Part shown: positions 8,618-11,514 of the stretch, piece after piece
Layout of the letters: each line of letters starts with the position of its first letter
How positions within the stretch are numbered: the stretch's first letter is position 1
DNA from: Chthonomonadaceae bacterium
GTDB taxonomy: Bacteria > Armatimonadota > Chthonomonadetes > Chthonomonadales > Chthonomonadaceae
NCBI GenBank assembly: GCA_027459665.1
Contig: DAIDHN010000012.1
Span: 1-64,000 of the forward strand
Direction of reading: 5' to 3'
DNA: 64,000 bases
Notes under the pieces: generated by a model
Told to the model about the DNA's origin: nothing
What the model saw: the letters and a program-made list of their open reading frames with translations, nothing else
The model's database searches: none
Position numbers and translations under genes: made by a program

Positions 8618-9601
8618 TTATCCCGCCTGAATCACGGCTCCCTGCTCTGCCGCCTTCCAGGCAGCCTCAGTCCATTCAATTACTCTTAAACCCCAGTAGG
8701 CAGGGCAACCTATCGGCTCCTCCTTGCGAATGGCCCTCACAAAATTCACATCCGGGTTGCTTCCTGCAGGCATATCCTCTGCCGCAGGCTGAAATCTTTT
8801 TCCATTTTCATCACATACCTCCAGCTTACCCTGGCGTATAAAAAACACGCCTTTCTCACACCAAATCGTAATGTCCTCATGCCAGGTAGCAGCGTGTCCA
8901 ACCACAGACACATTGCCCTGCGCCCCGCCTCGAAATCGTATAGACAGCGCAGAATTAATGTCTACAGGAACATCCAGGTTATCGATAAAGGCAGAAACGC
9001 TTTCCACCGACAAGCCAGTTATAAACAGCAATACTGCCAGTAAATGAGACCCAGAATCGTTCAGCTGCCCCCCGCCGCTCAGTGAAATATCCTGCCTCCA
9101 GCTTCCACTGGTGCCTTTATACCACTGCTGGCACTGAAGCCCCTGTACAAACTGCACCGCACCGTACTTGCCTGAGGCAATTTCGCGCTGAATGTAGAGA
9201 AACTCAGGCTGGTAGTGCCTCTGATAGTTCAAAACAAATACTCTGCCGCTTTCATCTATTGCCTTCAGTACCTCATGCGCATGTGCAACAGTACAAACCA
9301 GCGGCTTTTCACCCAGCACATGCTGACCATGTTTCAAACTATTGAGTATCTGCTCATAATGCGTTGTGTGAGGCGTGCATATTACAACTGCATCTGTCAG
9401 GCCAGAGGCAAGCAGCTTCTGATGGTCATCAAAGATGGCAGCACCCTTGAGAAACTCATGTCTGCCTTTGGTGCGCTCCAGTGCTTCTGGCCGAATATCG
9501 CACAGTGCTGTAATCTCTACGTCTGGCTGTGCCGCCAGTCGCTCAATATGCCCCTGCGATATACCGCCTGTGCCGATAATACCTATACGAAGTGTACTCA
9601 T
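8618..9601 (-). CDS. Gfo/Idh/MocA family NAD(P)-dependent oxidoreductase
   Basis: A 327-residue two-domain dehydrogenase. The Rossmann nucleotide-binding motif is at the very N-terminus (MSTLRIGIIGTGGISQGHI), followed by the conserved EKPLVCTVAHA segment near residue 95, where the Lys is the usual catalytic residue. The C-terminal alpha/beta domain includes SGGGQLNDSGSHLLAVLL with the family's Asp/His. Substrates are normally cyclic sugars or inositols; which one is unknown. The ATG at 9601 has AAGGAG about 12 bases upstream. An in-frame extension upstream has no such signal and runs into the hairpin after the next gene. It ends 16 bases from the convergent queC. Confidence 0.9.
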   Translation of the reverse strand: MSTLRIGIIGTGGISQGHIERLAAQPDVEITALCDIRPEALERTKGRHEFLKGAAIFDDHQKLLASGLTDAVVICTPHTTHYEQILNSLKHGQHVLGEKPLVCTVAHAHEVLKAIDESGRVFVLNYQRHYQPEFLYIQREIASGKYGAVQFVQGLQCQQWYKGTSGSWRQDISLSGGGQLNDSGSHLLAVLLFITGLSVESVSAFIDNLDVPVDINSALSIRFRGGAQGNVSVVGHAATWHEDITIWCEKGVFFIRQGKLEVCDENGKRFQPAAEDMPAGSNPDVNFVRAIRKEEPIGCPAYWGLRVIEWTEAAWKAAEQGAVIQAG

Positions 9602-9696
9602 TTTTCCCGCATTTCTCCTTGCTCTTAGAGATGAGTGTGTGTTGCAGGTGTAATTGCGCCCAGCATCAGAAGAATTCCTGCCTGATTTCTGAGTGC

Positions 9697-9733
9697 AAAA
9701 AACAGCCAGGAAAACTAGGTGTTTCCCTGGCTG
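9697..9733 (-). terminator. Terminator of the first PEP-CTERM gene
   Basis: On the - strand a stem pairing 9703-9710 with 9726-9733, extended by an AAAC/GTTT inner helix, is followed by six T (A6 at 9697-9702 on +). It lies 41 bases past the stop of the gene at 9774. Confidence 0.8.
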
Positions 9734-9773
9734 AATAAGCTGCTGATGCTGCAAGTACAGCGAACAGTGTTAG

Positions 9774-10364
9774 TTAGGCGCGAACTTTGCGGCGCTTGCG
9801 CACACCCAGCAGAGCACCTCCCAGCAGTAGGCCGGCCATGCTCATAGACGTGCTTGCCTCAGGAGTAGCGGGGGTAAAGGTGCCGCTGCCGCCGCTGGGT
9901 GAAGTGTGGCTGCCATTCCAGCCAGAGAGTGTAAGGCCGTAGCTGCCATTGGGAGCTATACTCAGCCCAGGGATGCCGCCGGTATACAGATAGCTGCCCA
10001 GTACGCCAACAGAACCACTGCCGGTATTGCTGACAAGGCCCTTCGAAGAGGTAGCAGTAAGCACAGGGCTGCTGCCGTTGCTGTTTTGGCTGATAGACCA
10101 GCTGATGTTGGTCATTGTGCTGCTGGATGAATTCAGATTCGCGTCTGAGCCTGAGAAAGTCAGATAATAGGTGCCAGACACAGCAGCGCCGTTGTAGGTA
10201 AGAGACACTACAGTGTTGTTAGCGGTCAGTTTACCTGATGCATAGCTGAACAGGCCGCCAGCGTAGGCCAGCGAGTGACCTTGTGCCTGTGCTACCAGGC
10301 CAGTCATGCTGGCAAGTGCTGCTACAGCAGAGATAGTTGCTAAAGTTCGGTACAATCCCCTCAT
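9774..10364 (-). CDS. PEP-CTERM sorting-domain surface protein, copy A
   Basis: A 196-residue exported protein with a signal peptide (MRGLYRTLATISAVAALAS... ending AQA), a Ser/Thr/Asn/Gly-rich beta-type body, and a C-terminal sorting signal: TPEAST, a hydrophobic helix (AGLLLGGALLGV), then RKRRKVRA. In known systems exosortase cleaves at this signal and the protein is displayed or released with exopolysaccharide. The motif here reads PEAST, close to the PEP consensus. GAGGAGG precedes the ATG. The neighbour at 10794 is a clear paralogue with the same leader element, so the two arose by tandem duplication. No exosortase lies in the window. Confidence 0.88.
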   Translation of the reverse strand: MRGLYRTLATISAVAALASMTGLVAQAQGHSLAYAGGLFSYASGKLTANNTVVSLTYNGAAVSGTYYLTFSGSDANLNSSSSTMTNISWSISQNSNGSSPVLTATSSKGLVSNTGSGSVGVLGSYLYTGGIPGLSIAPNGSYGLTLSGWNGSHTSPSGGSGTFTPATPEASTSMSMAGLLLGGALLGVRKRRKVRA

Positions 10365-10412
10365 AATTCTTTCCTCCTCAAGAAAATATAGCTTAAAGGT
10401 TCAAAGACACAA

Positions 10413-10483
10413 TACTCGAATGGACCAGCGTATGAGCCGGGTTTCCGAGAGTAATTGAGTACAGTGGCGGTCATGGTCACTGT
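10413..10483 (-). promoter_or_regulatory. Conserved structured leader element, copy A
   Basis: On the - strand, 49 bases before the start of copy A, an outer stem (TACTC/GAGTA, 10449-10453 with 10413-10417) encloses a hairpin CCGGC-TCATAC-GCTGG (10440-10425). In copy B the same hairpin is CCGGC/GCCGG; the change here gives a G-U pair that is only possible in RNA of the gene strand. The 23-base core is almost identical in both leaders, while the outer stems differ in sequence but still pair. Further upstream an ACAGTG/CACTGT repeat (10461-10483) with an 11-base loop has a counterpart of different sequence in copy B. It is probably a 5'-UTR regulatory RNA; function unknown. Confidence 0.6.
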
Positions 10484-10708
10484 CTTTGAGCGCACCTGAT
10501 ACAGTCAATTCTCATACTCATATTCTGAATGCTGCACAAAGCATTATATGCTACCTTTGAAGAAATTACAATAAATATAGCTTAACTAGACTTCTGTATA
10601 AATACTAGATTTTAATGCAATTTACAGCTATTCATAGTTATTCAATAATTTATTCGCAAAAATACAGCACCTTTAACAGGGTTCAGGCATAGATAACATC
10701 AAACCTGC

Positions 10709-10750
10709 AAAAAAACAAACGGTCAGAGAAACTGAAGTTTCTCTGACCGT
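10709..10750 (-). terminator. Terminator of the second PEP-CTERM gene
   Basis: A perfect 14-bp stem (10719-10732 with 10737-10750) with a 4-base loop is followed on the - strand by a T-rich tail including seven T (A7 at 10709-10715 on +). It lies 44 bases after the stop of the gene at 10794. Confidence 0.9.
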
Positions 10751-10793
10751 AAGAGCATCTTGCTGCTATGGGCAACAGAAGAGACTGCGCTGG

Positions 10794-11387
10794 TTAGGCG
10801 CGGGCTTTGCGGCGTTTTCGAATGCCGAGCAGAGCGCCGCCCAGCAGAAGGCCAGCCATGCTCATGGAAGTGCTTGCCTCAGGAGTAGCGGGGGTGAAGG
10901 TGCCGCCGCTGCCGCTGGGTGAATTGGATTTACCATTCCAGCCAGAAAGCGTCAGGCCGTAACTGCCGCTGGGGCCAGCATTCAGCGGAGAGGTGTTGCT
11001 GCCGGTGTACACATAGTTGCCAAGAATGCCGATGGCATTACCAATGTTGGTTACGGTGCCTTTGGAAGCTGTGGCAGTAAACAACGGGCTGCTGCCATTG
11101 CTGTTTTGGCTGATAGACCAGCTGATGTTGGTCATTGTGCTGCTCAGCGAGTTCAGGCTCGCATCAGTACCTGAGAAAGTCAGGTAATAGGTGCCAGACA
11201 CGGCAGCGCCGTTGTAGGTAAGAGTCACAAGTGAGTTGGTAGCAGTCAGGGTGGGGCTAGCAAAACTGAACAGACCGCCTGCAAATGCCAGAGACTCACC
11301 GGTAGTTGCCTGTGCCGCCAGTACAGTTGCACCAGAAAGGGCAACAGCTGTCGCAGCGGTCACAGCAAGTTTATAGATTCGGTTCAC
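10794..11387 (-). CDS. PEP-CTERM sorting-domain surface protein, copy B
   Basis: A 197-residue paralogue of the protein at 9774. It has a signal peptide (MNRIYKLAVTAATAVALSG ... QA), the same body segments (LTYNGAAVSGTYYLTFSG, MTNISWSISQNSNGSSP) and a nearly identical C-terminal TPEAST - hydrophobic helix - RKRRKARA sorting signal. The start codon is GTG at 11387 behind GAGGAGG. It is a surface or matrix protein in the exosortase pathway. The strong conservation with copy A across the whole length suggests recent duplication or gene conversion; divergence is concentrated between about residues 105 and 150, possibly the variable exposed part. Confidence 0.88.
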   Translation of the reverse strand: MNRIYKLAVTAATAVALSGATVLAAQATTGESLAFAGGLFSFASPTLTATNSLVTLTYNGAAVSGTYYLTFSGTDASLNSLSSTMTNISWSISQNSNGSSPLFTATASKGTVTNIGNAIGILGNYVYTGSNTSPLNAGPSGSYGLTLSGWNGKSNSPSGSGGTFTPATPEASTSMSMAGLLLGGALLGIRKRRKARA

Positions 11388-11432
11388 TTTTTCCCTCCTC
11401 AGAGAATTGGTAGAAACGGATGCAAAGTTATC

Positions 11433-11514
11433 TCCATTGAACGGACCGGCGTATGAGCCGGGTTTTCAAATGGATACTACTGTATATAGTGGCAATTTTT
11501 GTTCCACATTGCCA
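11433..11514 (-). promoter_or_regulatory. Conserved structured leader element, copy B
   Basis: On the - strand, 46 bases before the GTG of copy B, an outer stem (TCCATTTGAA at 11474-11465 with TTCAATGGA at 11441-11433, one bulge) encloses a perfect hairpin CCGGC-TCATAC-GCCGG (11461-11446). A TGGCAAT/ATTGCCA repeat with an 11-base loop (11490-11514) precedes it. Compared with the copy A leader, the core is conserved and the outer stems change in a pairing-preserving way. Confidence 0.6.

Follow-up and report, generated by a model that had tools for sequence, protein, structure and literature searches.

A predicted structured RNA element in the 5' leaders of one PEP-CTERM-type gene family of the Chthonomonadaceae

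Organization of the locus

The 64-kb stretch of DNA analyzed here (the window) belongs to the 3.67-Mb genome G000 and carries on its minus strand two tandem paralogous genes, each preceded by a leader with a similar short hairpin element. The gene that follows the first of these elements (copy A; positions 10794 to 11387, start codon at 11387) codes for a 197-aa secreted protein with the PEP-CTERM-type tail ATPEAST...GGALLGIRKRRK, and the gene that follows the second one (copy B; 9774 to 10364, start codon at 10364) codes for a 196-aa paralogue that is 71% identical to it. The tails of both proteins score under the PEP-CTERM cut-offs in Pfam and NCBIfam (for copy A, a score of 13 against PF07589, with the cut-off at 20.7) and are therefore regarded as a divergent PEP-CTERM form. 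They consist of a C-terminal PE motif, a hydrophobic stretch, and a basic tail, and the VPEA/TPEA...GG...RRRK arrangement is common to all homologues. An exosortase (PF09721, E = 1.1e-50) is encoded on contig C8 of the same genome.

A terminator scan detected a strong intrinsic terminator (10719 to 10750, minus strand) that follows gene A and precedes the leader of copy B; copy B therefore appears to form a separate transcription unit and each gene to have a leader of its own. Both genes have the Shine-Dalgarno sequence GAGGAGG (11394 to 11400 for copy A and 10373 to 10379 for copy B, minus strand) in the context UGAGGAGG, an unusually strong ribosome-binding site that sits ∼45 nt 3' of the element.

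The hairpin element in the two leaders

The element, found upstream of both PEP-CTERM-type genes, has the consensus [P1]-AAC-CCGGC-UCAUAC-GCYGG-UCCR-[P1'], where P2 is a hairpin of five pairs with the loop UCAUAC, AAC and UCCR face each other in an inner loop, and the outer stem P1 differs in sequence between the copies. The near-identical core noted in the preliminary description of this DNA was found at 11464 to 11443 and 10443 to 10422 of the minus strand, with AAACCCGGCTCATACGCYGGTCC as the sequence common to both leaders; the spacing given there between the core and the start codon is about right, with the hairpin ending 58 and 60 nt from the start codons. Copy A (11433 to 11474, minus strand) comprises the P1 5' arm (11474-11465), AAC (11464-11462), the P2 hairpin CCGGC-UCAUAC-GCCGG (11461-11446), UCCG (11445-11442), and the P1 3' arm (11441-11433). 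Copy B (10410 to 10457, minus strand) has the P2 hairpin CCGGC-UCAUAC-GCUGG (10440-10425) followed by UCCA (10424-10421), and its outer stem can be drawn as CAAU(U)ACUC/GAGUAUUG or, alternatively, as CUCGGA/UUCGAG. The hairpin arms of both copies are thus the ones originally described.

A 17-base pattern of the element, with up to 3 mismatches allowed, matches the window twice, compared with 0.08 matches expected. Taken alone, the elements (40 to 50 nt) fold more stably than their shuffled versions (z = -3.55 for copy A and -2.40 for copy B), and the stability of the whole 146-nt leaders is not unusual in the same comparison (z = -1.44 and 0.10). A covariance model that includes both copies matches copy A at 11423-11483 (E = 3.6e-12, with copy A itself in the model) and copy B, likewise part of the model, at 10402-10463.

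At the gathering threshold of Rfam release 15, the window yields only tRNA and the leaders match no family, in line with the original failure to assign the element to a known riboswitch class; below the threshold, leader A gives only chance-level matches off the element, and leader B gives none up to an E value of 5. A search for an intrinsic-terminator attenuator revealed no terminator-like site at the element; terminators were found only after genes. An anticodon-like reading of the loop, with U33-CAU as in tRNA-Met, was set aside: the loop has 6 bases, not 7, in six of the seven copies known.

A further hairpin with an 11-base loop, previously proposed as a common feature of the two RNAs, did not hold up. 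Its version in the copy A leader (TGGCAAT...ATTGCCA, 11514-11490) overlaps the sigma-54-like promoter TGGAACAAAAATTGCC, 5' of the likely transcription start (∼11480), and is therefore probably not transcribed; the version in the copy B leader (10483-10461) is different in sequence, and no counterpart was seen in the leaders of the relatives.

Distribution of the element

Within the family, proteins homologous to the products of the two genes were found in a further four genomes: G001, G011, and G014 (genus g2) and G004 (genus g5). A profile search added one distant member in G002. A model built from the two window leaders alone, the test set beforehand, recovered four leaders from g2 (E values of 0.0002 to 0.05 in 47 kb). 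These four copies keep the core, with the loops UCAUUC, UCAUUU, or CCAUUU and arms GUCGG. The leader in G004 probably carries a divergent seventh copy, UUGG-AA-ACCGU-AUCAUCC-GCGGU-CAA-CCAA, located directly after a perfect sigma-54 promoter. Against a model built without it, this copy reaches 11.4 bits, with an E value of 1.2 in 35 kb, so that its membership relies on its expected position in a homologous leader and is not certain by score. In total, there are seven copies, four of them from one genus, in 7 of the ∼16 members of a single gene family that spans three genera. Since the element is shared by proteins that are only ∼43% identical between genera, the reservation that the two original copies are recent tandem paralogues no longer applies.

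When the seven-member model was run against 291 Armatimonadota genomes, the matches with E values of at most 0.05 were its own seven members. Matches outside 5' leaders had been named in advance as an outcome that would speak against a leader RNA; all the confident matches lie in the 5' leaders of homologous genes. Of the weak model matches, those in G084 (L049 and L053) were set aside because they lie inside reading frames or on the strand opposite to them; others were seen in G058 (L050) and G007 (L054). Further sites that nearly match the core, in G000 and across the phylum (L003-L014, L031-L033, and L038-L041), judged collectively, show no sign of the flanking features, and such near-matches agree with a reversed-pattern control. 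The exact pattern was found in the genome collection in three records from the same family and in one Kribbella record (L056), where the match overlaps long reading frames and was taken as due to chance; viral contigs contained no exact match.

The general role at PEP-CTERM or exosortase genes that had been envisaged was not borne out. The element was not found, even with filters off, at other PEP-CTERM genes of five genomes, and most g2 paralogues lack it. In the four-gene clusters of G001 and G011, only the first gene has it, and the remaining three do not. The element is not a general RNA of the exosortase system. It is narrowly spread and lineage specific, and probably a real control element. 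On the protein tree, which is weak, the motif requires at least two changes of state; the simplest reading of this weak tree would be early presence followed by losses.

Conservation of the structure

In the alignment of the seven sequences, 90.8% of the cells are paired, compared with 21 to 45% when the partner is slid, five pairs have changed on both sides, and the covariation score is 0.424, as against 0.263 ± 0.051 in shuffles. Without G004, four of the both-sided changes remain and 92.4% of the cells are paired. The compensatory changes in the outer stem involve GC, UA, and CG at alignment columns 17-47, GC and AU at 20-44, and GC, AU, and GU at 19-45. When P2 was held fixed and the flanks of each copy were shuffled, the outer stem was better than expected in copy A (p = 0.013), copy B (0.023), G001 (0.012), and G011 (0.042) and not clearly above the shuffled flanks in G014a (0.28), G014b (0.08), and G004 (0.23). 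The combined values are p = 4.5e-4 for A, B, G001, and G004 and 0.005 when G014a is substituted for G001. The earlier observation that the closing stem differs in sequence between the two window copies and still pairs is confirmed. Variation in P2 is one-sided, from C to U on the 3' arm, and the resulting G-U pairs survive only in the mRNA strand, as had been remarked for copy B. The letters of the core and the apical loop are near-invariant (CAU is invariant, and the inner loop has AAC on the 5' side and UCC on the 3' side), and ∼20 core letters have been kept while the remaining leader sequence and the encoded proteins diverged.

Because the sequences are few and related and the structure was taken from their own consensus, these statistics support the fold but do not prove it. 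Compensatory change in homologous 5' leaders, the mark of a cis-regulatory structured RNA of a generic kind, is seen here at a strength that, given the small number of sequences, can be called moderate. Of the two parts of the original proposal of a cis-regulatory RNA, selection on RNA structure is supported by the re-pairing of the outer stem with other bases in the relatives; regulation of gene expression is what we infer.

Promoters and sigma-54 regulators

The copy A element is preceded by a sigma-54-like promoter, TGGAACAAAAATTGCC (GG-N10-GC; 11491 to 11506, minus strand), that scores 20.5 of the maximum of 25.5 by weighted consensus (shuffle p = 0.013) and predicts a +1 position near 11480, ∼6 nt before P1. 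Perfect sigma-54 sites (TTGGCAYG-N4-TTGCW) are found ahead of the element at the equivalent place in homologous leaders of G001, G011, G014 (L030), and G004, so that five of the seven copies lie directly 3' of sigma-54 promoters; the predicted start of P2 is +20 for copy A, +26 for the leaders of g2, and +10 for G004. The leaders of copy B and of G014 L016 contain no sigma-54 site that scores above chance. The only promoter-like site of copy B that the promoter scan found is a sigma-70-like one, TTGTAA-17-TATAAT (10543 to 10571, minus strand), ∼100 nt 5' of the hairpin. Retention of the element in these two leaders, where a sigma-54 promoter is unrecognizable, indicates that it is not part of the promoter.

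RpoN is encoded in every genome with the motif (in G000 it scores below the equivalog cut-off, with all three sigma-54 domains present). Together, the -24/-12 promoters (four perfect sites and the weaker one of copy A) and RpoN make up a predicted sigma-54-dependent PEP-CTERM regulon. No protein reached the PrsR cut-off (TIGR02915, 502.6 bits): each genome tested has one candidate, with 374 to 383 bits, and the candidate NtrC-type regulator contains receiver, AAA+, and lid domains and differs from PrsR in that score and in having no detected Fis/HTH domain.

In G000, a conserved block 4 to 8 kb upstream of rpoN (contig C18, L093:590-5599 and 8778-10184) codes for a histidine kinase with GAF/PAS domains, an NtrC-type regulator in which no HTH domain was detected, and a PilZ protein. 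The same block adjoins PEP-CTERM genes in G002 (L094:7633-13010), and its NtrC-type gene is the sole strong PrsR-like match in each of the five genomes tested. G002, a Chthonomonadaceae relative, also has a perfect sigma-54 site, TTGGCACGGAAATTGCAT, before the distant homologue L062 (C1:3201333), with a leader that lacks the element. Leaders of element-less paralogues (L021, L022, L023, L025, L026, L028, and L029) have sigma-54 promoters as well; the element-less leaders share an (A/G)GGCACA motif and an AT-rich stretch ∼15 to 20 nt after the -12 element, and in some of them a later GGTGCC could pair with this motif. Positions 11598-11545 (minus strand) of the copy A leader, 5' of the sigma-54 site, contain a possible TTGCAT-17-TATAAT site and then TTTCTCAGTTGAGAAATTTTTTTTT, which resembles a weak terminator hairpin and is absent from the scan output.

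Possible roles of the element

Judged from the comparison of sequences, the element is most likely functional. The reading we favor, with moderate confidence, is a cis-acting leader RNA of one PEP-CTERM gene family of the Chthonomonadaceae, where recognition by a trans factor would tune translation or mRNA stability. In copy A and most of the relatives, the sigma-54 promoter would start the mRNA shortly upstream, which would place the folded element at or near the 5' end. A specific factor would then recognize it, as suggested by the conservation of loop rather than stem letters; candidates for this factor are RNA-binding proteins, small RNAs, and small molecules. Its binding would alter translation from the UGAGGAGG ribosome-binding site or the life of the mRNA, making the element a second layer of control under promoter choice. 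A narrower version, to which we assign a rather low likelihood, is a new class of RNA that senses, below the sigma-54 promoter, the state of the sorting or exopolysaccharide system and ties to it the amount of one exosortase substrate, with the element serving as an aptamer for a small molecule or as a site for a dedicated RNA-binding protein.

The main rival is a passive role without any sensing, in which a hairpin near the 5' end shields the mRNA or keeps the Shine-Dalgarno sequence open. The closeness of P2 to the predicted 5' end, the freedom of the outer stem to vary in sequence, and the location of the strong ribosome-binding site in a separate stretch downstream would all suit such a device; however, a passive stem has no need of a near-invariant UCAU loop and an AAC/UCC inner loop, and the copy B hairpin, with its promoter-like site ∼100 nt upstream, is not 5' terminal, which leaves this role a possible but clearly less probable one. 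Another proposal is that CCGGC-N6-GCCGG is a DNA operator, bound as a duplex by a repressor or another protein downstream of the promoter. The core of copy A is indeed a perfect palindrome and the sigma-54 promoters lie directly 5' of most copies, but the palindromes of copy B and of g2 are imperfect at differing places and keep their pairing in the mRNA strand alone, neither the conserved loop nor its flanks are symmetric, and the outer arms vary on both sides with pairing retained, so that an operator appears unlikely.

Least probable of all is a pseudoknot switch, in which CUCA(U) of the apical loop pairs with (A)UGAG of UGAGGAGG and hides the Shine-Dalgarno sequence. All six confident copies have UGAGGAGG, motif-less paralogues have AGGAG or GGGG, and only one other TGAGGAG precedes an open reading frame in the window; nevertheless, GAG is offered by any Shine-Dalgarno sequence, and the pairing is weakened by CCCAU in G014 L030, which breaks it without a matching change, and by G004, which has no complement. 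An absence of function, with leader sequence inherited by duplicated genes and folding by chance, would agree with the few copies, the single gene family, and the likely vertical inheritance, and is about as improbable as the operator in view of the ∼20 core letters kept and the outer stem re-paired while the leaders and the proteins (∼43% identity) diverged.

Relation to known systems

Sigma-54 control of PEP-CTERM genes is known in Proteobacteria (PMC1569441; PMC9850573): parts of these two papers describe control sites of the sigma-54/PrsK-PrsR type that lie ahead of PEP-CTERM genes (Haft et al. 2006, PMC1569441) and pepA as an RpoN-dependent PEP-CTERM gene (PMC9850573). The promoters and the regulator block found here fit this control, as far as those parts of the two papers describe it; they share with it PEP-CTERM genes that stand as single units and have -24/-12 promoters in a long upstream region (PMC1569441, PMC9850573), along with the presence of RpoN and an NtrC-type regulator. 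However, the PrsK-PrsR control element, as described there, is DNA, an enhancer motif and a promoter, and the relevant passages of PMC1569441 and PMC9850573 report no leader RNA structure. The literature search found no work that joins PEP-CTERM with a leader RNA.

With the small 5'-leader regulatory RNAs of Rfam, such as riboswitches and protein-binding leaders, the element has in common a compact hairpin whose loops are conserved and whose closing stem covaries; it differs from them in that no Rfam family scores at its threshold or close to it in the leaders, in having no terminator or clear expression platform, and in being limited to one gene family of one bacterial family. The ompA leader is a 5'-terminal stem-loop that stabilizes its mRNA. 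The element resembles stabilizers of this type in placing a hairpin near the predicted 5' end, ahead of a strong ribosome-binding site, but its loop letters are conserved and the copy B hairpin is internal in the predicted transcript.

The narrow range of the element (seven copies in three genera) limits its wider importance. Regulation of PEP-CTERM genes, in the portions of the literature cited above, has so far been described at the level of promoters, through sigma-54 and PrsK/PrsR (PMC1569441; PMC9850573). In the Armatimonadota, a phylum that has seen little molecular work, a covarying leader RNA, if true, would add a post-transcriptional layer to the control of an exosortase substrate.
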